Assembly (NCBI GenBank): GCA_011033025.1
Contig: WFMF01000055.1
Span: 558,001-622,000, forward strand
Reading direction: 5' to 3'
Source: Beroe forskalii
Taxonomy: Eukaryota > Ctenophora > Nuda > Beroida > Beroidae
DNA length: 64,000 nt
The notes beneath the pieces are model-generated. The model was not told the DNA's origin. It worked only from the letters and a program-made list of their open reading frames with translations, and did not search any database. Made by a program: the position numbers and the translations under genes. Each line of letters starts with the position of its first letter. The first letter of the stretch is position 1. Shown here piece after piece: positions 26,921 through 56,881 of this stretch.

Positions 26921-27146
26921 TTGGATCGCCTGCTGAGTTCTACAAAAATAATCCTCCTCGAAGGGGTAGTGACCGGCCAAGGATAGTCTTATGATTCATT
27001 GATTGCTATTGATAAATTTAATTTATTCATTTCACTTATCGATCATCATATTGTCTCATTTTAATCAGAAATAGTCCTATTTCTGATCAAATTGACGAAT
27101 ATATGTTCAATCTCGCCCACACACCATGATATCGCCCACATGGTAC

Positions 27147-27572
<426 letters not shown>

Positions 27573-27667
27573 CTGTATACTTACTCCCATGTCGACTTCT
27601 GGGATCATGAGTCGCAACACCTGTCATCTTCCCCACTACTTACGTAGGTTATATGCATATGGCGTGG

Positions 27668-36801: not shown

Positions 36802-37581
36802 ATGGCTGACAAACTGAGAGACGAACAGATCCAAGAGTTCAAGGAAGCCTTCAGTCTCTTTGACAAGGACGGAGATGGTATGTCGTCACATGATATCGCC
36901 AGACTCTGTCTCCATAAAGATTTCACAAAACATTCAATTAGAAGTAATTTGAAAGGCACTCAATTTAATGAAGCCTTACTCCCTAGTGGTGAATGTTCCG
37001 CAGTCCCACGCAGTTGCAATGAATTAAACCTCTAACTAACCAACCCACTTCAGCAGCTGTCCATGAACCGGAAATGAATCTCAGTCACTGAATCTTCCCA
37101 AAGTGAATCGAGCTTAATCTTCCTCAATAAATCACTGAAACTTCGTTTATCTCAGGTACTATCACGACGCAGGAGCTGGGAACAGTCATGAAGTCATTGG
37201 GACAGAACCCATGCGAATCAGACCTCCAGGACATGATCAATGAAGTGAGTAGAAATACATAAATCTTGGCTTAATTCCAAAAACTCCAGATGGGGAATAC
37301 GAGTACAGTACAGTCTTTTTAATATGCAAGGCGGAAAATTTCTTTCATCTTTGACAAATGCTTTCAAAAATTCTTCGAAATTCTGTCCCAGTACCATGCG
37401 ATCATTTCAAATCCTTTTTTATCCTTTAAAATGTTTTCCTTTCCTCCATTAATCAGCGCCTTAACCTCCCCAGGTAGATGTTGACGGCAACGGCACGATA
37501 GACTTCACGGAATTCTTAGACATGATGACGAAGCATATGAAGGAGAGTGATAATGAGCAGGAGTTGCGGGAGGCCTTCAAG
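36802..37581 (+). CDS. Calmodulin-like gene, constant N-lobe exons 1-3
   Basis: Exons 36802-36877, 37156-37244 and 37474-37581 join in phase to encode 91 residues starting [22 protein letters not shown]-hand 1 loop is DKDGDGTITTQE and EF-hand 2 loop is [12 protein letters not shown], both with every calcium ligand. The linker [18 protein letters not shown] follows. The length equals the N-lobe plus linker of calmodulin exactly, with roughly three quarters identity to vertebrate calmodulin by eye. The last exon ends AAG|GTAACA, a phase-0 donor with no stop, so a downstream C-lobe exon is required. Calmodulin is invariant in most animals, so this is a calmodulin-like paralogue, not the canonical gene. 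Product: a cytosolic calcium sensor. Confidence 0.93.
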
Positions 37582-37621
37582 GTAACATTGCACCCCGATA
37601 AACATAGTCAATTCATATCAC

Positions 37622-37762
37622 ACCGGTGTCGCGAGTTCTGGGAAACCTGTAATTTCCAAATGGCAGCAATTTGTACGTACGTGATAGCCACGTTCGTAGA
37701 TGGTGCCGCGCGACTTAGAAATTTCAGGATTAATCTCAACTCTCAGAACTTGCGACACCTGT
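37622..37762. repeat. Inverted-repeat element, copy 2
   Basis: CACCGGTGTCGCGAGTTCTG and CAGAACTTGCGACACCTG are inverted ends. Internal landmarks CTGTAATTTCC, TTTGTACGTACGTGA and GGTGCCGCGCGACT match 21331-21465. It lies 40 bp into the intron after the N-lobe donor. Confidence 0.75.
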
Positions 37763-38807
37763 ATTGCACATTGACCCATTATCATGCTGTTCACGAAATG
37801 AGGGCGGTTGAGGGAGTGAAGTCATCATTTGGGTCAAAAATGCGAACTGATGATCAACAATCGCCCTTTTTCGTGTGCAAGCTAATTGCCCATATCATAA
37901 TTATGGCTACAATATTTACATGAAAAAAGGGGGCTTAGTTTTTATTTTGAAAAGCTGCTAAATAGGGGCTGATAGTGGGTTTGCTTTTTTGCTTTGAGTA
38001 GATAATGCAGCTATTATTGCGGGGCTGGCTGGAAGCAAATTAATCACAAATTCCCAAAAACATCACGAAAAAGCAAAGAGGACTCTAACAAGGTCCGATT
38101 CAAATTATTTTGAGTGTGAATACATGTAATTGATGTTCATTTCGTACCTCTTTCATATGCAAAACTGTGTGAATCTAAGAAGTCGTTTTGAGTGTCGTTC
38201 GACACTGAAATGATGCATTATAAGACAAAGCATTATAAAATCTTGACGTTCGTTCCGTGTTCTGTATTTTATTGAAAGAAGCCTCCTATTTATTTATGAT
38301 GCAAAGCACTCGTACAAAGTTCTATGAAAAGTACAACCAGCTGGAGCTTTTTTTGTAGCACAGTTTTTGTGCTGATTTCGTGTCCAAAGTGAAAATCTCT
38401 TCAACATTATCCACCACAAAATATATATAAATTGAACCTATATCATTACTGAAACGAGTTGATCCTTTGCAGTATCTATTTGTTTTCGTTTTCCTTCTCG
38501 AACTTTTTTATTTGTTAAGATGTGTTTGTGCCGTTTGAACCAGATTAAGACTATAAACAGTACCAAGTTGAGGACTATGATATAAGGTTGATTTGACTTT
38601 TAAACCATTCATTACACTATTCCTTATTTCTAGTGCACGACTTATTAGGTATATCTAGAAACAACAGCTAGTTTTGTTAGGATATGACCAAGCTCAAGGT
38701 TCGGTAAAAGAATTTAATTTGAAGGAATCGTGAATCATATTCCAGATCTATCCAGATTCCAAGTATATTCAACGTTAAATTTAAAACGCCATATTTTGCA
38801 ACATATC

Positions 38808-38929
38808 AGCAGTGGTTCGAACTGCAGTTTTGTGTGCGCGGCGTAAGATTGCGCAGCGTACAGACATCTTATTCAAATGTCGCGCAAACTTACGCCGCGC
38901 ACACAAAATTGCAGTTCAAACTGTCACCG
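38808..38929. repeat. Hairpin MITE, family H, copy 1
   Basis: GTTCGAACTGCAGTTTTGTG with GCGCGGCGTAA is mirrored by TTACGCCGCGCACACAAAAT and TGCAGTTCAAACTGTCACCG. About 120 bp, non-coding. Confidence 0.88.
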
Positions 38930-39112
38930 TATTTCTCATTCTACCTCGAGAGTTTGACAGCACTATTTCACATGAGTTTCAGCTGAATAGATGCAAAGTT
39001 TCGCTGCCTATTCGCTATACCGCCGCTTTGACCATATTATCAGGCAGCTGTGATTGTGACACCGAGAATAATATTATGAGGTTTCCAAGTCGCACGCATC
39101 GTCTACGTACAT

Positions 39113-39949
39113 TAGACCGCCTCATAAATGGTCGATATTTCAAAATCAAGGTGGGGGTATCTTAATATCCCCCATTTGGCATAAAATGAGGCTTGGTAAC
39201 TTTATTTATGACCAAAATCGAAATATCACGTTTGCAGCAGCCACGCCCTTTTAAGCTGGAAAAAGCATTAGAATATAGGCTATGAGCCAAACACTGAAAT
39301 TTGGAAGCCTAACAAATGATTTGAAGTTCTGATATGTTCTGCGTTGTCTTCCCTATCCTTGATAGTGGTGTCAAAGAAGAAACTAGATAAAAATTTTGTT
39401 AGCAACCCAAGTTATGATGATTTTAAATTGAATTAATTTGATAGTGTGTTAAATATAGTACCTAATAACTTTGCAGCGGAAGTAACTAAAAATTGATTTT
39501 ATTCACTATATTCTCGCAATTTTTCATATTTTCAATGTTATTTGGGCTATGAGGATGGTAACAACGAAAATTGGCATGTGTATACGGATTTTAAACCATT
39601 TCAAGATTTTTTCGCTGCAAAGTTATTATCATGCATAACATGGGAGGAGTTTTGTGCAGCTTTGAACCATTATAACTTGGCTTCGTAACACAATTTTATC
39701 TCATTTTTCTTCCACCATTTTTCTCCATGGGGAAGACGATGCCTGTGTATCAGCACTTCAAATCATGTTTAGGCTTCCAAATTTTGTGTTTAGTTCATAG
39801 CCTATATTCTAATGCTTTTTTAACTTAAAGGGGCGTGGCCACGTGTTTCGATTATGATCAAAAATTAAGTTACTACACCTCATTTTATATGATAAATCAA
39901 GTTGATTTACTCAAAAAAGTTGATTTTCGGTCATTTATGAGGCGGTCTA
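39113..39949. mobile_element. Non-autonomous DNA transposon, hAT-like, with 8-bp target duplication
   Basis: Terminal inverted repeats begin TAGACCGCCTCATAAATG and end CATTTATGAGGCGGTCTA. The flanks carry an identical 8-bp duplication ACGTACAT at 39105-39112 and 39950-39957. Long subterminal inverted homology continues inward (GGAAGCCTAA, ATAGGCTATGA, GCCACGCCC on both sides), so most of the 837 bp can fold back. There is no transposase frame. An 8-bp duplication is typical of hAT elements, so the element was probably moved by a transposase supplied elsewhere. It lies in the intron between the N-lobe and the first C-lobe module. Confidence 0.88.
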
Positions 39950-39964
39950 ACGTACATGATACAG

Positions 39965-40145
39965 TGGCCAGGTAGCGCAGTGGTTTAGGGCGTCGTTCTT
40001 CCAATCGAGAGGTTGGTGGTTCGATTCCCGGCCGTGCCTATCGTGCAGTAAAATCGCAGTATCACGTACGTGCAAATGGTGAGCCCATTTGGAAATTCTC
40101 CGGTGTTGCGACACATAACTTTTGCAATTTTTAAACTTTCGCACA
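39965..40145 (+). mobile_element. tRNA-derived SINE
   Basis: The head resembles a tRNA with pol III boxes GTAGCGCAGTGG (A) and GGTTCGATTCC (B), and contains GGGCGTCG and CGGCCGTGCC. The tRNA fold is imperfect and the part from about 40040 to 40145 is unrelated tail. It sits only 8 bp beyond the target duplication of the DNA transposon. The right end is uncertain. Confidence 0.75.
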
Positions 40146-40421
40146 GATGATAAATTCTATAACCACGCCCTTAAACAATATTATTTTTCTAAAACGCTCT
40201 AAAAACTATTTTATTATTTCGTAGTGCATGCCTGTGTAGATTTTACTGTGTTCGTGATACCTTGCTTTTACAATTTGATCGTGTTGTGCTGTGATCGTGA
40301 TCCCTCTTATATGATCTCATCGGACTACCCTCTTACATGCTGCTGTTAGCAGACGAGGTGTCACCAAGAAGAAGGTGTCACTGTAAACTCGGTGTGGTGT
40401 TCGAGAAGTTCCGGTGATCAG

Positions 40422-40559
40422 ACGAAGAAGGTGATGCACAACCTGGGCGAGAAGTTGACAGACGAAGAGATCGCCGAGATGATCCGCGAGGCCGATGCCG
40501 ACGGCGATGGCGAAGTTGACTACGATGAGTTCGTTAAGATGATGTCATCAAGTAAATGA
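40422..40559 (+). CDS. C-lobe module A', damaged (EF-hand 3 missing)
   Basis: Codes for [20 protein letters not shown] followed by [17 protein letters not shown] and ends SSSK-stop. EF-hand 4 ([12 protein letters not shown]) is intact. Upstream, GTGTTCGAGAAGTTCCGGTG at about 40398-40417 is the remnant of the normal exon start, but compared with module B it has lost several pieces and reads into a stop. The AG at 40420-40421 would act as an in-frame phase-0 acceptor and give a 136-residue protein without EF-hand 3. Its pyrimidine tract is weak. It is either a pseudo-exon or a truncated C-lobe. Confidence 0.6.
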
Positions 40560-40781
40560 TCAGTTAATCTCTCTTGGTAGTAGACATGGGGGTGCGATGG
40601 TTGAGGAGGGTTAATAATTAATTGTTTGAGAGGAGAGAGAGAGGAGAAAGAGGGGAGGAAGGATTTTATCTCAGACTTTATTATATTATATACCTACATA
40701 TATTATTTGCACGTGCGTGATGATAATATAGTACAATCAGTGTATTATGTTATAATACTGAGAGAAGAGAGAGAGAGTGGG

Positions 40782-40932
40782 CTGCGCGCGAAATCTAGGT
40801 GGTGAGTTGTCATCATCAGGGTTTTAAACTGGATTAAACAGGATTATAATCCGGTTTAAACAGGATCAGTCCTGTTTAATCCTGTTTTAAACGGCCCAAT
40901 GATGACACCACCCCGCTTCCTTTTCGCGTGCA
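40782..40932. repeat. Hairpin element related to the CRE-type family
   Basis: TGCGCGCGAAATCTAGGTGG and ACCCCGCTTCCTTTTCGCGT are the inverted ends, flanking TTGTCATCATCAGGG and CAATGATGACACC. The middle is AAACAGGATTA repeats in both orientations, a palindrome with several arms. Confidence 0.75.
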
Positions 40933-41994
40933 CCCTCTAGTTTATAATTTCCACCGGATTTTGTCCCTGCGGCACTGATTTAGATCTTATGTAAATATAT
41001 AATTTAAAGATGGAAAGTGCAAGGTTTGATCAGCTACCAGTCTTATCTCTTATCTAATACTCCATCCTAACAGAGAGGCATGATAACAGCTGCGCTACGT
41101 TTTCCAGCGCAGTTTGGTAATAATTATAACACATAAGGCTTATTTTTAAACATTTTAGATATTCATATATGAAACTCACGTATACATGTATATATCTAAT
41201 GAAATAATACATTATACATTTAGTTGAAAAGATTTTAAGTGTCTTTATTATGTGAACTACGTGTTTTCTTATCATAAAGTCATGAAAATCAATATAGCTG
41301 ATCAGCTGTCATCGAATAATTTATGTATCTTTATATCTATATGATGTCTTGCTTCAAATCAATATATACAATACATTCCAATCACAGTTGTGGAGTCGGC
41401 CATCTTGTTTTTTCTAAGCCACACAATCGTCAAAGATTTGCATTATAAGTATCATATCACGGACCACACCTAGCGTTATAAAGTCTTTGTAAATAGTAAA
41501 TATAAATTGTATTTTTGGTACCAATTGACTAGAGTCTAGACGATGTGGTGGTTTTATATTATATTAACCTTATCAAGTTATAAGTGCCAAGGGGTTTTTC
41601 TTTGTCTAAAATAACTACCCGAAATTTTAAAATGTTAATGACTAAGTCTGTAAATCATAAGTTAGAGGTCTATTGCAAGAGATGCATTAAATACTTTATG
41701 CCACGTAACACAAATCATAACTTCACTATAAAAGCGGATCTTAACACGATATAGACTCAGAATATAGACTCATAAAATGAGCAGAATATGTCTTCATTAA
41801 CGGTAACTGTAATTAGCATGTCAGGAAGATATGCAGAGTGTCACCAGTGTGACATGAATGTAGTGATAATTAGGCGAATATATAGTATTTATCATGTCTT
41901 GTTGCCATATGTCCAAAACTATATTATGTCAATGTCAAATTGTTGCTATATACGCAAACATATCTGTGCAAATAGATTTATTGAAATAAGGGGA

Positions 41995-42119
41995 GGGACA
42001 AAGACGCGCAGTTAAAATGTTTTCACTGCGCGCGCGCATTCACTCTCCAGTGAATTCCTGTAGTGAATGCGCGCGTGCCATAGAATAAAAGTTTTATTTA
42101 TCTCGCGCGTCTTTGTCGC
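41995..42119. repeat. Hairpin element
   Basis: GACAAAGACGCGC and GCGCGTCTTTGTC are perfect inverted ends. An inner pair GCGCGCGCATTCACT/AGTGAATGCGCGC forms a second stem. Confidence 0.88.
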
Positions 42120-42699
42120 TGGCCCAATTCAATCGATGTGCATACATTTGTGTTCTATATTAAAGTTAATAATTACCACCAACAACTTCAGCCAAAGCTG
42201 TTCATATATTGCTAACATGTGTGTTCTCAATTTACTCATTCAATCTCCCCGGAGCATGATAGCAGAGACAGAAAGACAATCGGAAGACAGCTTTTGTTCA
42301 ACGTACATACATGTTATATGCTGAGTAAAGCAGCCATACCGAGTAAAGCAGATGTTGTGTGCTGAATAAAGCAGAGATCTCGAGTTGGATCTGCCCTTCG
42401 TGGATTATAAGTTCCCGATATCAGCTGATATATGTCTCATATCTGCCAAGATTTCCAGCTGTAACTGTCAAAAGTGCCCTGGCATCAAAAGCTCGAATCT
42501 GCGTGTTGCATCTGTCAAAAAGCCAAAAGACTCAAAAAGTCAAAAGTGAACTGCTGATACTTGTTGCATCTGTCTCAACGTCAAGCGCCCACTATGTTGC
42601 ATCTGCCACATCTCAATAGCCCCTGGAGAGTCCCTGAACCATATTTGCCCCAATATCCTAAACCCTGGAGATTCCCTGAAAACCCTGCATGTATCGTAG

Positions 42700-42879
42700 G
42701 TGTTCGATACCGATGGTTCCGGTAAGATCAGCTCGGGGGAGCTGAAGAAGGTTATGCACAACCTGGGCGAGAAGTTGACAGACGAGGAGATCGCCGAGAT
42801 GATCCGCGAGGCCGATGCCGACGGCGATGGCGAAGTGGATTACGAGGAGTTCGTCAAGATGATGCAGAACTCGAAATGA
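42700..42879 (+). CDS. C-lobe module B (alternative terminal exon)
   Basis: One exon of 59 codons plus stop begins [20 protein letters not shown] and ends KMMQNSK. EF-hand 3 loop is [12 protein letters not shown] and EF-hand 4 loop is [12 protein letters not shown], both with full ligand sets. The acceptor is GTATCGTAG, whose TAG is in frame, so the module cannot be translated from upstream without splicing. Joined to the N-lobe it makes 150 residues. From AAGAAGGT onward it is about 95% identical to module A', which points to a recent duplication or gene conversion. A candidate polyadenylation signal AATAAA lies near 43745. Confidence 0.88.
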
Positions 42880-43739
42880 TAAGAGAAAGTCTGATCCAGG
42901 AGTGCGGGCGAGGAGTAGGCGATATAATATGGTGGGGCTCCTTTTCTGAGAACTTAAGTCAAAGAACCGACTTTGATAAAAAGTTACAATTGCAATTTGG
43001 CACTAAAATATTTTGAATTAAGTCCGTTTTTTGGCTTAAGTCTGTTTCGATAAAGGACCCCCAGTGATCTGTCGCTAAAGAACTTGGCACTCTGCCAAAA
43101 GATAGCCACGGAACCTTCTGGAGGTTGTCTTTTGGCAGATCTCTGAAACCACCTCGATCGAGTACACCAAGTAACGATTCTGTTTTTAAAGGTGCAGATC
43201 GCTGGTGACAGTAAACTATACATTCCTATTCCTCGTTCACGGCTTTGTATTAAGGTATCATTATATTGTATGCTGTGCAGATGTATGGTTGTTTTGGTGT
43301 CAAATGTCGAGGGCTATTGTTATATTATGATTTTTATGAATACAAATTACAATACATAGATAATAGATATGAATGTGATAAGTAGTGTATGAATGTATGT
43401 ACCTTGCCCAATTTGAGGGTATTATCTAAGTATTTGTGTATATACAATGTTGTGTACATCTTAACATTCACAAACGTACCTTTATCATAACTTTCTGATG
43501 ACTGAAGTAAATTTGTTATCAAGAATTGCTGTCTGATGGTCCTAGAAACGGTGTTTTGTAAGTACCACACAGCTCATAGGCACTTTTTACAGGAACTAAG
43601 GATTTACAGGAAATGTGGATCTTAACCTTTACACCCGCTGATCATTGCTAAGCTTGGCGTTTTCAGGATGTTAAAACCAATATTTTATTCATAGTTTTAC
43701 AATCAAATCTATGAGGAAGGTCTTTTGACCTTTGTTTGA

Positions 43740-44638
43740 ACATAAATAAATTTTTCTGTGATGAATATAGTGAGGCTAATTAGGCTATAAGTATGCAACG
43801 AACTTTTACCGATTCTAAAGTTAGATAATTTAACTTAAGGCACGCCCTTCAAAGCTTCTATAGAACTTTGTATCTGTGAATATTTCGTGAAAAGGAAATT
43901 CTTCTATACTTTCATCATGCTGATGCTATGTTAAAGTAGGAGCGAAATAAGATATGAAATGCGCGCGCGTTCAATAAACGTGTGCGCGCGTTCTGTCACA
44001 CATAAAGAAAATCGCACGCGCGCGCCACATATGGGAGGTGTGTTTGTGGCACTGTGCGTGTGAAACTGAGACATGGAATTAGAATGCGAAGAAGTGGAAC
44101 AGATATTGAACAGTCAAATAGCGGAGAAAATGCTTTTAATTGCACGTGGAAGACAAAGTATCTTCTGTGGTAGTTCAGGGCAGCTTCAGACACTTGGGAA
44201 ACTGCTAAGCATAGTGAGATGAAGTTCGATCCAGTCAACATTAATTATTAGCGAGGCTATGTGGGCCCAAACAAGGAGTGAATTGTGAGCGAAGAAGTCT
44301 TGATTTAGCTCAGACATCTTGAAGTGTGGGTGAGTCAGTTAGCTTTGAAGTGTGCAAGGTGTGTAGTGGAATAGTGGATGAACAAAACAGCAAAAACAAT
44401 GTCTTGGGGTGCTAATTGCTTCGTAGTGAAACATAAACTTGATAAACGATCAGTCCAAATATTGTGAGTGAAGAAATGAATTGTGAGCGAAAATTGTAGA
44501 TAAAGCATGTTAGACATGGACTCTTGAAGTGCGTTTGTTGTGCGGAAGTGCGTGGAATATGTGAATGAGTGACAGCCAGGCATCTGCTGCAGCAAACATC
44601 CCTCAGCAGCGAGCCCTAATCCACCAACCGAGCTACAG
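43740..44638. other. Interval between modules B and C
   Basis: No coding exon is seen. It contains the candidate module B polyadenylation signal, a CG-alternating patch (GCGCGCGTTCAATAAACG and similar) near 43960-44030, and a GTGAGYGAAGAA repeat tract just before module C. Confidence 0.4.
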
Positions 44639-44815
44639 GTATTTGACAAGGACGGCGACGGACACATCAGCAAAGCCGAGCTGAAGATCGTGATGAAGAA
44701 CCTGGGCGAGAACCTGACGGACGCAGAGATCGAGGAAATGATCAATGAGGCGGACGCTGACGGAGATGGTGAAGTGGATTACGATGAATTCGTGAAGATG
44801 ATGAATGCGAAGTAG
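44639..44815 (+). CDS. C-lobe module C (alternative terminal exon)
   Basis: One exon of 58 codons plus stop follows acceptor CGAGCTACAG. It begins [20 protein letters not shown] and ends VKMMNAK. EF loops are [12 protein letters not shown] and [12 protein letters not shown], both complete. Joined to the N-lobe it gives 149 residues, the exact length of calmodulin with its Met. The upstream frame closes without an ATG, so it needs splicing. The 600 bp before it carry an imperfect duplication of GTGAGCGAAGAAG-type and GACTCTTGAAGTG-type sequence whose role is unknown. Confidence 0.9.
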
Positions 44816-45490
44816 ATATGCACTCCATGATATAAAATTAATTCATGCGTCTCCCTTCTGCGGGTCGCACAGCTGGTGCTATGTGATATTTCAGTCCTGT
44901 ATAGTCTTACGAAGATGCGCATGGGATTATTAGGGTCCCCGAATGGCAAATATCATGTGAATTCATGATAAATTTGCCGCATTGCCAGCTCTTGACTCAT
45001 TCGAGTCATATGCGTCTCAGCGCTGTCAAAAAATCGCTCCAAGGATATAAAAAGCGGGTTTATTGAATATTCCTGCTGAATTATATAATCGCGTCTGTAA
45101 AATGATATTTTTTGAAGCATGGATCTCGATTTGCAGCACCTTTCAACGTTTCTTTTTCTCACTTTTGTAGAATATGTATATATACATGGTTCCTTCAGCT
45201 CGTTACCCAATTGTAGTGTAGTGTGTATATAGAGAAAATAATATAAATGTTCCCTACTGTACATATATAATAGTGGTTTTAATTGTGTTGTGTGCTCATC
45301 AGTACTCACGTAATTATAATTATTAGAAGTGTGTGAGATGTATAATGGAGGAGAAGCACTTATATCGTTGAAGTTGTGTATTTTAAAGAAGTATATTTTT
45401 AATGGATATAAGTCGTTTTAATTGATTTAATTAGAAGAGCAATTATTCAGCACGGTAGGGTTTCATGCAAAGTTCATCTCGAATAAAACG

Positions 45491-45583
45491 CCGCGCGCGA
45501 AAAGATAGGCGGTGTGACGTCATCAATTCACCATTTCGAAGTTTGATAGTGACGTGAATGTCGGACACCTATTTTGCGCGCGT
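45491..45583 (+). repeat. CRE-type short element with clear ends
   Basis: CCGCGCGCGAAAAGATAGGC and GACACCTATTTTGCGCGCGT are inverted ends around GTGTGACGTCATCAATTCAC and TTTGATAGTGACGTG. Confidence 0.82.
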
Positions 45584-45929
45584 GGCTTCTGAACTCTTTC
45601 CGCGTCCTATCTTGCACCAGGTACCTTTTGATCAAGTCTACTGCTCAATCCCCTACATACTACCCCAATCATTAGCTACGTTTCATGGAAATTTGGAGCA
45701 GTCTTTAAAACGAAGTAAAATCCTGCTTTGAACACGTCATTTGCAACTAAATCTAATTCTAAACCTTTCAGACCTCGGTGGTGCGCGTTGTCATTCGTTG
45801 AAACGGGTCATGAAAATAGTCATCTAACTGGGCGTGTATAGCAGTAGTTCAGCAGACTTAAGCCCAATATTGCGATGTAAGAGAGTTGGTAGACCACTAG
45901 AACAACTAAAACGAATCAATTAAAAAGTT

Positions 45930-46310
45930 GTGATGCAAATTGTCCCGATTTTCCACATAACATCATATTTTATACTGTGGTAGGTAACTACACGGTCTTA
46001 AGATCAAGCCTTGATTCAAGCGGTTTAATGCCAAACAGTTTATTGCCAAAATTAAAAACCATTTCCATTTTCTTCCAATCAAACATAAGAACATTAAATT
46101 TGTGCCTCTGACACTTTGGTCCTCAACCAATTACTACCCTTACTTTGCTGGACCTGCGCGGAGGAGAAACTGTGATGCAAATTTATTTGCGGCAGTGCAC
46201 CAAATTGTCCCGATTTTCCACATAACATCATAATTCATATTTTATACAGTGGTGGGTAACTACACCTTAAGATCAAGCCTTGATTCAAGCGGTTTAATGC
46301 CAAACAGTCG
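45930..46310 (+). repeat. Direct duplication of about 110 bp
   Basis: CAAATTGTCCCGATTTTCCA followed by AGATCAAGCCTTGATTCAAG occurs at about 45938-46040 and again at 46201-46308, in the same orientation with a few indels. Confidence 0.85.
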
Positions 46311-46326
46311 ATTTACCAACTTACTA

Positions 46327-46431
46327 CGGTGAGGGTTCGCAGTGTGCGCGTCTTTTGTGTGCGCGGGGTACGACGCGTTATATTACGCCGCGCGCACAAA
46401 ATACGCGAAAACTGCAGGTTGAACTGCCCCT
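46327..46431. repeat. Hairpin MITE, family H, copy 2
   Basis: GTGTGCGCGTCTTTTGTGTG with GCGCGGGGTAC is mirrored by ATTACGCCGCGCGCACAAAA and TGCAGGTTGAACTGCCCC. More diverged than the other copies. Confidence 0.75.
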
Positions 46432-46656
46432 GTTAAAAGATGATGTTCAAATTTCTCAATCCTACGCAATTGTTCGTACTTGAAAAGTTGCGGCTTTTAA
46501 TGGCCACCGCTATGACATGTAACCGCTAATTCCAATATTCCATCCCTATTCCCTGATAAATTCCCCTGGGAATCTGCCGCAATGTAAGTACTGAATTAAA
46601 TTTAAATGGCGCAGGTGATGTATTCAAAAAGTCACCTCAACTATTTGACGCAGAGT

Positions 46657-46718
46657 TCCCCTAACCAGGGTGGTTTAGCGCTCGGCACTCTGTGCGCGAA
46701 ACCAGGGCCCTGGTCAGG
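46657..46718. repeat. 65-70 bp palindromic element, copy 2
   Basis: CCCCTAACCAGGGTGGTTTA, GCGCTCGG and GGGCCCTGGTCAGGGC correspond in reverse complement to the element at 9645-9715. Confidence 0.75.
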
Positions 46719-47445
46719 GCAAGACTCAGAGTGGTTTTACTGGCCGAGTAATGGCGAGACAAACGGCTCCCTATTCCATACTTCATTCCCAGGAGAGTCT
46801 GTTAGTAGTATAACCAGACACGGTGCTATTTGGTAGGGCTGGAAAGCTGGAAGATTGATCCCAACTTATATGCAGTTCTATACTATATTCTCATCCGAAT
46901 GGGCACAAAATAATGGGCACTGTTGCTGTAAGTCTGATGGTTAATCTTGAACAAAACTCCTTGTTTTTAACAGTCACAAGTTTGAGATCTTTTGAATCCT
47001 TCTGAAAAGTGGGTACATCTGGAATGTGTTGATGTATGACTTAAATCGAGCTGCAGCCTAAAGTACACTCAGTACAATTCTCCAGGCTGTTGAAAAGTGT
47101 ACGCTAGAAAAATGTGCAAATTTTGCAGGTTTGTGTGTACTCATTGAGGTTTTATAGGGATTCCCTAAGGATCGACGTGTGTAGGAATGATAAAATGTAT
47201 TCAGTAGTACACACTGTAGATGTACACATGTTATCAGTTGTAAGAAATAATACTATTGTGTAGGCTTCCATGGTTATAATGACGAAATCTATGCAGTACC
47301 TATACATTATCATTGAATTCCCTCACTTTATCATGAAGTCGTTACATTGCAATGTGAGTATGATTATAAAGACACCTTTCCTACCTCATTCTCGTGGTAA
47401 AAAGGAACCATTGGTAAAACCGTATCGGGTTGAAATACGGATACA

Positions 47446-47536
47446 CCGCGCGCGTTAAATAGGTAATTATTTTCCACAATTTAGCAGCGCACACAATGTT
47501 TATGAAGTCATCTCGACCGCCTATTTATTTTGAGCG
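47446..47536 (+). repeat. CRE-type short element, degenerate
   Basis: CGCGCGCGTTAAATAGGTAA and CGACCGCCTATTTATTTTGA are the inverted ends. The inner part keeps only AAGTCATCTC. Confidence 0.6.
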
Positions 47537-47904
47537 TATACTAGTGATTATGGGGATTTCGTGAGTAATTCAATTAATTCGATACATAATTAGGGGGCCG
47601 ATGACCTGAATTACTGTGTAATATGGATGAAACTGTGAATGGCATATGGTTACGTTTGACGTCATTGTAAACAGGGGTACAAAATTAAAATATCATGTTC
47701 ACAAAAAGTCTTGTAATAAAGAAGTTAGATGTTATAAAGTTTTTGAAGCCCTTATTGTTGCCCTTCGGGGATTTCAATCAATCTAGTAGGATCTATGCCA
47801 CCATGAGGAGCATTATACGTCACATAGTTTTCGTACTTCGAGAAGTCACAAATTCAATTTCTCTTATGAAAGTCATAACTTGGGGAGGGGCAAGGTGGCT
47901 CTAG

Positions 47905-48034
47905 GTCATCTGGCCTAACTGGACATTTGGCCTAACGCCTTAAACTCAAGAAATAATCAAGAAATTTTGAATTTATCTCTCTCCCCTGACCCTAACCAGT
48001 GTTAGGCCAGATGTCGAGTTAGGCCAAATGACCG
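47905..48034. repeat. Inverted-repeat element (GGCCTAAC ends)
   Basis: AGGTCATCTGGCCTAACTGG with ACATTTGGCCTAAC is mirrored by GTTAGGCCAGATGTCGAG and TTAGGCCAAATGACC. Arms are about 35 bp around a middle of about 60 bp. Confidence 0.85.
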
Positions 48035-48243
48035 AATACCGGGCAAGGTTGATGTCATAACAACCTTTAGTATAGGGGGAGAATGGCTTCGAGGACAATG
48101 GAGCATTCTTAAATGTCAACAATTTTTTCGAGGGGGAAGGGTTGAAAGAAATGCGATTTCAGTAACAGATGGAGGGCCGGGTATATGAGGGGATGGCGTA
48201 TTATCTTTAATAGAACTTTTTTTTCAATCTAAATTTTCATTTT

Positions 48244-48362
48244 ACGGTGGCAGTTCGAACGGCAGTTTTGTGTGCGCGGCGTACAGACTTGTTATTTACA
48301 TGTCTTTATGCCGCGCAAACTTACGCCGCGCACACAAAACTGTAGTTCGAACTGTCACCGTT
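48244..48362. repeat. Hairpin MITE, family H, copy 3
   Basis: CGGTGGCAGTTCGAACGGCA is mirrored by GTAGTTCGAACTGTCACCG, with GTGTGCGCGGCGTACAGAC and ACTTACGCCGCGCACACAAA inside. Both flanks show TTA, consistent with a 3-bp TWA target duplication as in PIF/Harbinger-type MITEs. Confidence 0.9.
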
Positions 48363-49068
48363 ATTTTTATGAAATATAAATTTTATGTGTGATGCCAGAT
48401 GTGAAGTCAGAAAAATGTCAATGCTGAGAAGCTGTGATCTAACAAACGCATATTTTCAATCTTTCTCAAAGTGACTAAGTGAGTGCGAACTTGAAAAGAA
48501 TTTTTGATGTTTTCAGAATTCAGAACAAACCTGAAACCCTACAGTAGATCTATAGAGGTTATTGTGAAGAATGTCGAATGAAATACGTGTGGAAAGAATA
48601 GATCAATTTAGCAAACATTCTGTCAGAATCTGAGTCAAGAGACAAGAGTGCGCGTGTGAGCGCGAGTGTGAAAGTCATAATTGTGTGTGAAAAAAAATGA
48701 AAGCTGGAAAGTGGAACTGTCCGATCAAATCAGAAAAATGAGTGTGAAGAAGTAGAAATATTTGGGAGAAACATCAAACCTTGAACCTTTGAAAATGTGA
48801 ATGAGAGTCTTGAATGCGAGCGAGATTGAAAAGAATATCATGGAATATATTTCACCATTCTCAACTTGAGTCAATTGTGCGTTGTGAAAGAATTCACACC
48901 ATGGTACATGAAAGAAGTCGAAACTGTTGAAGGACATGTGTGAGATTCAATCTTTGAAAGTGACAGAAATCGAATCCTGTAATGAAAGTGAGTGAGATCG
49001 AGCGAACGAATGATGAAAACCACCATGGATATAAAAAACAGAATTCACGAGCTCCATTCAATCTACAG

Positions 49069-49245
49069 GTGTTTGATAAGGACGGAAACGGAAAGATCAG
49101 CAAGCAGGAACTGAAGATCGTCATGACCAACCTCGGGGAAAACCTGACGGATGCAGAAATCGAGGAGATGATCAAGGAAGCAGATCACAATGGTGATGGG
49201 GAAGTAGACTATGATGAATTCGTGATGATGATGCAATCGAAATAA
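49069..49245 (+). CDS. C-lobe module D (alternative terminal exon)
   Basis: One exon of 58 codons plus stop follows acceptor CAATCTACAG. It begins [20 protein letters not shown] and ends VMMMQSK. EF loops are [12 protein letters not shown] and [12 protein letters not shown], both usable. It is closest to module C (shared [14 protein letters not shown]). The frame stays open upstream through the acceptor to an ATG at 48982, so an 87-residue protein with two EF-hands could in principle be made without the N-lobe. Splicing to the N-lobe gives 149 residues and is the simpler reading, because the residues before VFD do not resemble calmodulin. Confidence 0.9.
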
Positions 49246-49418
49246 TGGAGGAGGAGAGGAAATATTAACTTGCGTTTATACATATATCAATTATATCTGT
49301 AGTGGCTAGAATTATGAAAGCATGAAGATCTATTGACCAAGTTGCGCGCGCGCTCACCGCGGCATGAATTTGATGAAGTCAAATATTTTATTCTGGGAAA
49401 GTGTGTCTGCGACTCTGC

Positions 49419-49625
49419 GATCAGGAAATCATTAAATATGGAAGACGTATCAAGCCAGCACTTGGGGTTTTTGATATATTTAGAGCAGCAAAATGCTCGT
49501 TTCGTTATGAAAGTCTGATCAGGAAATCATTATAATATGGAAGACGCATCAAATTTAAACCAGATCCAGGGTTTTATTGATGTATTTAGAGCAGCAAAAT
49601 ACTCGTTTTATTTTGAAAGCCTGAA
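49419..49625 (+). repeat. Direct duplication of about 100 bp
   Basis: GATCAGGAAATCATTA, ATATGGAAGACG and TATTTAGAGCAGCAAAATRC occur in the same order in two adjacent units (about 49419-49517 and 49518-49623). Open frames across it have no recognisable domain. Confidence 0.8.
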
Positions 49626-50352
49626 TACATGGGATTCTTGCATCGAAGTGAGAATGGTATATTTTACTCGCGGCCATCACACTTTCGCAGAATTGGGAAG
49701 ACTAACAAGTGAGTGTCGAGAGACATTTCTCATGTTGAAATCACGCTTCATTCTTAGCCGGACAGATTGGAAATTAAAAATTATTTATACATACTATTGA
49801 GTATTGGTTTATATACATGAAGAATTGATGGATGGTAGTATAGTATTTTTATCTGTGTGGAAAAATTATTTCCTTGAGTTTGATCAGATAAGTGGCTCCA
49901 TATAGGTACGGTAACTAGAATAATGAAGTTATGATTGAGATGAAGTGTCTTAGAACTTTAGACTTTAGATTTGGAAAATATTATACTGGAAAGATATGAC
50001 GAATAGTAGCTATGACTAATCTATATATTAATTGAGGTCTGTATTGAGCAAATAGCCTACTTTATGTTAATTGAATCCGTTTGTCACTTAACGAAGTCGA
50101 GTCTTAGCCTGTTTTTTTAAACAAATTTTCTGATATTTGAAAGTTTATTCGTTCAGAAGATGAGAGAACGACTTTTGATGTAAATTTACGATGGAGTTTT
50201 TTAAATGAAATCAAGCATTGGTTACTGTTTTGATTAATAGATAAAGTTTAGAATATGCCAAATGAATGATGATAAAATGACCGATGGACAACCTATTACA
50301 CCATGCACTTAACCTTGACACTAATCCTCTCCCTCTTTGGCAAAATTCCGTC

Positions 50353-50445
50353 TGTGACACCAATCTACTGTGACACCAATCTATTCTGACACCAAACTAC
50401 GCTGACACCAATCTTCTCTGACACCAATCTCCTCTGACACTATTC
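50353..50445 (+). repeat. Short minisatellite with TGACACCAATCT unit
   Basis: About six copies of (C/G)TGACACCAATCT(A/C)(C/T)T. The core matches the arrays at 3240-4080 (complement) and 63425-64000. Confidence 0.88.
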
Positions 50446-50577
50446 CATTCTGCCATACGCTTGCCAGAAAGTGGCGATGACATGGCGCATCAGTCTACGG
50501 CAAAAGTGCACTTTGTAAAATGAAAATATCGCTGACTTAAACGCTGATCAGAGCCGATAAGCGGTAATCTCCAGCGA

Positions 50578-50728
50578 TCGGCGCACTTTAGTGAGTCAGA
50601 AGTGCGCATGCTTTCCATGCGCAGCGAAATCGTGCGCGGCTCACTGCCTCTTATTAACAGCCAGTGAGGCGCGCACGATTACGCCGCACATGTTAAAGCT
50701 GCGCACGTTGAATTTCGAAACGCCACCG
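50578..50728. repeat. Hairpin MITE, family H-related, copy 4
   Basis: AATCGTGCGCGGCTCACTGC and CAGTGAGGCGCGCACGATTA are inverted around CTCTTATTAA. The outer part has GAAGTGCGCATG and CATGTTAAAGCTGCGC, and the right end is CGCCACCG. Confidence 0.75.
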
Positions 50729-50977
50729 AAAATAGTATGGTTGAACCTCCATCAGCAATCGCCGATCGTTGCCGAGCGGCCTAATTAAAGACGCAGATGA
50801 ACCGATAAATGAATTCCGATCAGCACCTAGTTAAAGAGACCAAGAGATTAGCGAATATTGACAAAGTACACTTTTGCCACAGGCGTATCTCATTGCATAT
50901 CTCTTCTTATTCATATTCTCAGCATCGAACTGATGTCCCTTCTGTGGATGTTTGAATGAACTGCATTACATTTTCAG

Positions 50978-51612
50978 GTGTTTGATCAAAACGGTGACGG
51001 GAAAATCTCAGCGGAGGAGCTTAAGCAAGTTATGAGCAACTTGGGAGAGGTTCTAACCGAAGATGAAATAGATCAGGTAATTCCTCAATCCTATACAGAA
51101 TCAAAACTATCAAATTAAACTTTTCAAATTCAATTATTTCATTTCGCAAATCTCGCTCGTTGAACTGGAAATGAAGTATGAATGTTTGTTTTCCCACATT
51201 TATAAAAGGGGTAGATCGATCACCTCCATTCGAAAAACCAAAGTCTTATACAGGCCCCTCAGACAGAGTCCTAATTCACCGTAAAGTGGTGCACAGTTGT
51301 GCTACAATTCTCGATAGTCATACCATCCCAACGGGGGCGTGTCAAAATCCTTCATGCGCGACTTTTTCATGCGCGGCGTAATTGCGAGCGGCTCAATTAT
51401 TAATTAACAGCCAGTGTGTCGCTCAGTCGCGCAAGATAACGCCGCGCATGAAAAATCCGCGCTCGTGCCACGTAACAGTTCGATACGCCACCGCAATTCT
51501 CCTAACACGATCTTAACAACAAATCCTCTCCCATCAGATGATACGGGAGGCAGACACAAACAGGGACGGTTTTGTGGATTACGAGGAATTCGTGCGAATG
51601 ATGTCCAAATAA
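50978..51612 (+). CDS. C-lobe module E (two-exon alternative terminus)
   Basis: Exons 50978-51076 and 51538-51612 join in phase 0 to 57 codons plus stop. The first reads [20 protein letters not shown] and on to EDEIDQ. The second reads [18 protein letters not shown] and ends MMSK. EF loops are [12 protein letters not shown] and [12 protein letters not shown], both with key ligands, though position 4 of the last loop is Arg. Unlike B, C and D it keeps an intron inside EF-hand 4, and that intron contains a hairpin MITE (51333-51492). Joined to the N-lobe it gives 148 residues. An AATAAA at 51608-51613 overlaps the stop codon. Confidence 0.88.
51333..51492. repeat. Hairpin MITE, family H-related, copy 5
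   Basis: TTTTTCATGCGCGGCGTAAT and GATAACGCCGCGCATGAAAA are inverted arms around GCTCAATTATTAATTAACAG. Outer ends are GGGGGCGTGTC and GATACGCCACCGC. Located within the module E intron. Confidence 0.85.
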
Positions 51613-51970: not shown

Positions 51971-52110
51971 CACGGCGGCGGTTCTAACTGCAGTTTGTGC
52001 GTCTTTTGTGTGCGCGGCGTTCAGACATGATATTATAACATGTCTGTACGCCGCGCAAACTTATACCGCGCACAGAAAAGACGCGCAAACTGCAGTTCGA
52101 ACAGCCCGTT
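51971..52110. repeat. Hairpin MITE, family H, copy 6
   Basis: CGGCGGTTCTAACTGCAGTT, GCGTCTTTTGTGTGCGCGGC and ACAGACATG are mirrored by CATGTCTGTACGCCGCGC and AAGACGCGCAAACTGCAGTT with CGAACAGCCCG. Confidence 0.88.

Positions 52111-54753: not shown

Positions 54754-56881
<2,128 letters not shown>

Follow-up and report, generated by a model that had tools for sequence, protein, structure and literature searches.

Calmodulin is the textbook calcium sensor in which one sequence serves many targets. Another EF-hand gene, that of ascidian troponin C (Yuasa et al. 1997), is reported to give two isoforms by a splicing-dependent swap of an internal exon. The swap resembles the arrangement reported here in being an exchange of exons by splicing, but is reportedly internal and not a series of terminal exons that each encode a whole lobe. 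The available part of PMC9440207 describes at least 20 isoforms of Drosophila lola that share one N-terminal BTB domain, 17 of them having unique C-terminal zinc fingers. As presented there, lola and the present locus both combine a common N-terminal part with varied C-terminal ends, whereas the lola products are transcription factors rather than Ca2+ sensors and are far more numerous (PMC9440207). Also among the closest systems are three database models from Bolinopsis microptera, calmodulin-A-like X2 and X3 and calmodulin-like X5, in which, like the design described below, an identical N-lobe switches at a VFD to three C-lobes. These isoforms are known as database annotation, their names carry no remark on the design and no paper describing them was found in the literature searched.

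In that literature no description of a calmodulin-like gene with a shared N-lobe and alternative C-lobes was found among the matches listed, judged by titles and the beginnings of abstracts. Three papers dealing with calmodulin genes or with signalling by calcium (PMC4987107, PMC6171432 and PMC2873350) make no mention of such a gene in their available parts, and neither "splic" nor "ctenophor" occurs in the main text of PMC4987107. The initial annotation of the locus knew of no described case. This stands for the literature searched, among the matches listed, and must be amended in that NCBI already carries the Bolinopsis isoform models.

Results

Shared N-lobe exons and four intact C-lobe modules

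The window, meaning the whole 64,000-nucleotide stretch of Beroe forskalii DNA that was analysed, spans bases 558001-622000 of contig C636 in an assembly of 216 Mb and 1134 contigs. The three N-lobe exons (Table 1) total 273 nt, or 91 codons, and encode a calmodulin-like N-lobe plus linker that ends in the residues REAFK, in phase 0 at the GT donor after 37581. Coordinates, translation and donors thus agree with the initial proposal of a stopless 91-residue N-lobe and linker in three exons with a phase-0 donor. On the same strand lie modules B, C, D and E, each of which opens with VFD after an AG, begins mid-domain in phase with the N-lobe donor and has its own stop. Upon recomputation the single joins of the N-lobe to B, C, D and E again gave 150, 149, 149 and 148 residues, as first claimed together with the common VFD start and separate stops. 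The joined products have four EF hands in two lobes, the length expected of a calmodulin-like protein being about 149 residues, and N-lobe+C aligns with PDB calmodulin chains over its full length. By reading, the EF3 and EF4 loops of all four modules are intact and of the ordinary calcium-binding form; the frames and splice sites of B, D and E are likewise intact. The locus has the anatomy of alternative last exons, with common 5' exons and several terminal exons carrying their own stops.

Table 1 Positions of the N-lobe exons and C-lobe modules in the window.
Feature	Position	Strand	Remarks
N-lobe exon 1	36802-36877	+	76 nt; donor GTATGT; from translation and splice donor
N-lobe exon 2	37156-37244	+	89 nt; donor GTGAGT
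N-lobe exon 3 and linker	37474-37581	+	108 nt; donor GTAACA; no stop
A'	about 40422-40559	+	Broken copy of B with intact EF4; lacks a usable acceptor ahead of VFD
C-lobe module B	42700-42879	+	59 aa and stop; near-exact joined proteins P0015 and P0017
C-lobe module C	44639-44815	+	58 aa and stop; exact joined protein P0006
C-lobe module D	49069-49245	+	58 aa and stop
Module E exon 1 (EF3)	50978-51076	+	Opens with VFD after AG
Module E exon 2 (EF4 and stop)	51538-51612	+	Class-E relatives are Bolinopsis P0026 and Mnemiopsis P0077

The module list first drawn up also held A'; B to E stand as intact modules and A' does not. A' aligns to B in register, with the first half of EF3 and the VFD region (about 40380-40424) scrambled, and no AG before a VFD was found there. 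A' was rejected as a functional fifth module on account of the scrambled half of EF3. Over the 40 codons common to A' and B there are five synonymous changes and one non-synonymous change, which suggests that the break of A' is recent.

When the sequences upstream of the modules were compared no common flanking stretch was found; what the spacers have in common is palindromic repeats. These have GCGCGGCGTA/TACGCCGCGC-like cores, lie in introns at 38815-38921, 48244-48361, 50602-50706, 51356-51462 and 51977-52106, and resemble small non-autonomous transposable elements. Elsewhere in the window a (CA)n/(TG)n array of roughly 450-500 bases occupies 27065-27647.

Canonical calmodulin of the same assembly is encoded by a separate gene (contig C814, locus L049). 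It is like the present locus in its two-lobe EF-hand layout and length of about 149 residues, and unlike it in having no intron at the lobe boundary and a single C-lobe seen. N-lobe+C falls short of near-identity to animal calmodulins, being about 74% identical to, for example, that of mouse. Neither the canonical gene nor two of six other calmodulin-like genes checked have the lobe-boundary intron; the remaining four have it, in phase 0 in two genes and one base off in the other two. An intron lying exactly at the lobe boundary makes the C-lobe exon duplicable on its own.

Database proteins that join the two halves

A protein search with N-lobe+C found P0006, which is identical to it at 149 of 149 residues, comes from a JGI contig of 1056 bases and is the only sequence in its cluster. 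Since the distance from the ATG to the stop of C in the locus (36802-44815) is 8,014 bases and includes three introns, the P0006 contig cannot be this genomic stretch, and spliced RNA is its simplest source. P0015 and P0017, both of 150 residues, are near-exact N-lobe+B joins of the same or a close species, their longest contigs being of 1183 and 1107 bases. Their N-lobes differ from that of the window at 3/87 and 4/87 positions, and each C-lobe differs from B at 1/55 with a different tail. The contigs bearing such joins are presumably RNA.

Exact N-lobe+B, N-lobe+D or N-lobe+E proteins were absent from the best 120 matches of two protein searches, and no N-lobe+D or N-lobe+E join for this species was among the best 120 matches. 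As the protein database is clustered at 90% identity, N-lobe+D could hide behind P0006, yet P0006 has one member.

For comparison of the lobes, 16 proteins were chosen from the best-120 lists of three largely overlapping protein searches; the four with species names (three from Bolinopsis and one from Mnemiopsis) are all ctenophore proteins. Nine further proteins looked like canonical or fused calmodulins, and the remaining listed matches were judged by their table rows alone. All 16 relatives carry both an N-lobe and a C-lobe and have 148-170 residues, except one of 205. Comparisons used 87 N-lobe and 55 C-lobe columns, leaving aside variable ends such as the differing C-terminal tails of P0015 and B.

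Lobe histories among the sequences compared

The N-lobes of the Bolinopsis isoforms X2, X3 and X5 (P0023, P0019 and P0026), which are NCBI database models, are identical (0/87 differences). Comparison of their C-lobes gives 10, 17 and 19 differences over 55 positions, with the switch at the same VFD. Each is placed on a contig of 20,825,282 bases, and the isoform names, the identical N-lobe and the equal-sized contigs suggest a single gene. Two further pairs behave similarly: P0022 and P0031 differ at 1/87 N-lobe and 17/55 C-lobe positions, and P0024 and Mnemiopsis leidyi P0077 at 1/87 and 18/55. Together with P0006 and P0015/P0017, the Bolinopsis isoforms support the original inference of one N-lobe used with alternative terminal C-lobes. 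The phrase "mutually exclusive terminal exons" was right as to terminal exons sharing an N-lobe; because each module carries its own stop, the better wording is alternative last exons.

The C-lobe tree, built on 55 columns, requires two changes, the minimum, for three class labels that were given after the difference matrix had been seen, against a mean of 9.4 for shuffled labels (0 of 200 as low). In the N-lobe tree (87 columns) the same labels require seven changes, the shuffled mean being 7.2 and 121 of 200 shufflings as low. A clade of the window's own C-lobes was rejected (p-AU 9.5e-5), as was a clade of the three Bolinopsis C-lobes (p-AU 0.020). Few inner branches are well supported (1 of 16 in the C-lobe tree and 0 of 12 in the N-lobe tree). 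The seven class-E rows form one side of a branch with support of 90/85 and class C/D has 74/78; in the best tree class B does not come out as a single clade, and it does so in 21% of bootstraps. At positions 96, 103, 124 and 131 six class-E rows share no residue with ten rows of the other classes, a count that leaves out P0129, P0006 and P0017. P0028, P0129 and P0130 are distant and their placement is unsure, P0028 belonging to no class group. Judged from these trees, C-lobe classes group across species and N-lobes do not group by class. Such differing histories are expected if each species reuses a single N-lobe with C-lobes that are old and were maintained separately, and whole-gene duplication alone would not give this pattern without conversion of the N-lobes.

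Searches for further N-lobe exons

An alternative is that the modules belong to a tandem array of ordinary calmodulin-like genes whose own N-lobes were missed or were lost in assembly, gene conversion accounting for the near-identical N-lobes. A complete separate calmodulin-like gene does lie just downstream (54754-56881, about 54.8-56.9 kb, the ends being approximate because the model has a frame error at the first junction). This divergent gene has N-lobe exons of its own, an EF4 that is degenerate and a basic extension at the N-terminus; one of its introns contains a (CAAT)n array some 300 bases long. Other calmodulin-like genes of the assembly are also paired (contigs C338 and C164). On C338 two copies about 12 kb apart (L058 and L060) share N-lobe exons, and a C-lobe was detected behind the second copy alone; this may be a similar case of a shared half, or else a duplicate that broke.

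Each copy of a tandem array would have its own N-lobe. A tblastn search with each N-lobe exon over 37582-50977 gave no N-lobe exon, although it recovered all three from the downstream gene (55388, E 0.007; 55733, E 2e-7; 56177, E 2e-4). In unfiltered searches of all six frames of 37582-50977 with exon-profile HMMs the top hits were the C-lobe modules, including A', and again no N-lobe exon was found. The best other hits had E values of 0.19-0.22 among the five best listed per profile. In the downstream gene the profiles found exons 2 and 3 (E 5e-8 and 0.008), with exon 1 at E 0.26. Immediately ahead of module E, at 50745-50831, the exon-1 profile gave a stray hit that was stronger than that control (E 0.19), and the profiles found no exon 2 or 3 beside it. 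As control exon 1 scored less well than the stray hit, a lone exon 1 that had diverged strongly could go unnoticed. Among the 73 assembly-wide matches listed, the highest N-lobe identities outside C636 were 75% (exon 1) and 74% (exon 2), both to canonical calmodulin on C814. The claim that no further N-lobe exon lies between the modules therefore survives both methods, less firmly for exon 1. Moreover, the window contains no N bases, and in Bolinopsis the isoform N-lobes agree at 87/87 positions while the C-lobes differ at 10-19 of 55. We consider a tandem array very unlikely.

Selection on the C-lobe modules

A second alternative holds that a single module (C, perhaps B) is in use and that the others are relics of exon duplication. 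N-lobe+C is the sole exact join among the matches listed, and A' exemplifies a module that broke. The initial annotation had called for substitution rates to be compared among modules. In the six pairs of B to E (56 codons) pN was 0.10-0.25 and pS 0.69-0.90, pS being beyond correction in five of the six. Chance is excluded, since joined relatives exist and since in every one of the six pairs pS is saturated or almost so and pN lies far below it. By their substitution pattern, B to E are under strong purifying selection and each of the four has been maintained as protein for a long time. Against the relic explanation stand this pattern, the intact frames, splice sites and EF loops of B, D and E, and the finding in P0022, P0024, P0026, P0031 and P0077 of class-B and class-E C-lobes that are linked to the same kind of N-lobe. 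Disuse of all modules but one is highly improbable.

Sequences upstream of the modules

Module D is preceded by an in-frame ATG 29 codons upstream of its VFD with no intervening stop (open frame 48982-49068). The frame ahead of module C is open over 22 codons and contains no in-frame ATG, and ahead of modules B and E a stop interrupts the frame within the last seven codons before VFD. The open frame into D is either a chance occurrence or an alternative start for a protein consisting of the C-lobe only; a separate start of D is thinkable in principle. That some modules give short proteins of their own, or follow first exons that are not EF-hand exons, would fit the frames ahead of D and C and the length limits of our protein searches, which miss proteins much below about 80 residues, but is scarcely credible given the stops ahead of B and E, the fact that every module starts in mid-domain, follows an AG and fits the phase of the N-lobe donor, and the presence of both lobes in 16/16 close relatives compared.

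Discussion

The locus is very probably one ctenophore-type calmodulin-like gene with alternative terminal C-lobe exons. In such a gene the constant 5' part, comprising N-lobe and linker, would be joined through the donor at 37581 to one of several alternative last exons, module E being used as an exon pair and the other modules as single last exons. One promoter would thereby give at least four Ca2+ sensors of 148-150 residues with EF1 and EF2 in common and differing EF3 and EF4. D and E are presumably also joined to the N-lobe in this species. Transcription may run through the array, a choice of splice acceptor coupled to an alternative 3' end then picking the C-lobe. Within 1600 bases after the stops we found two AATAAA signals for B, one for C, none for D and one for E. 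As 1.1 are expected per 1600 bases, these counts are at background level; they are uninformative on 3' ends and give no support to the alternative 3' end step. The C-lobes may adjust affinity for Ca2+, or the choice of targets, to the cell type.

If one lobe is indeed fixed and the other swapped by splicing, the gene would be a natural lobe-exchange experiment on the C-lobe residues that set Ca2+ affinity and target choice. If the design is true, it would offer early-branching animals a way of diversifying their Ca2+ sensors by splicing.
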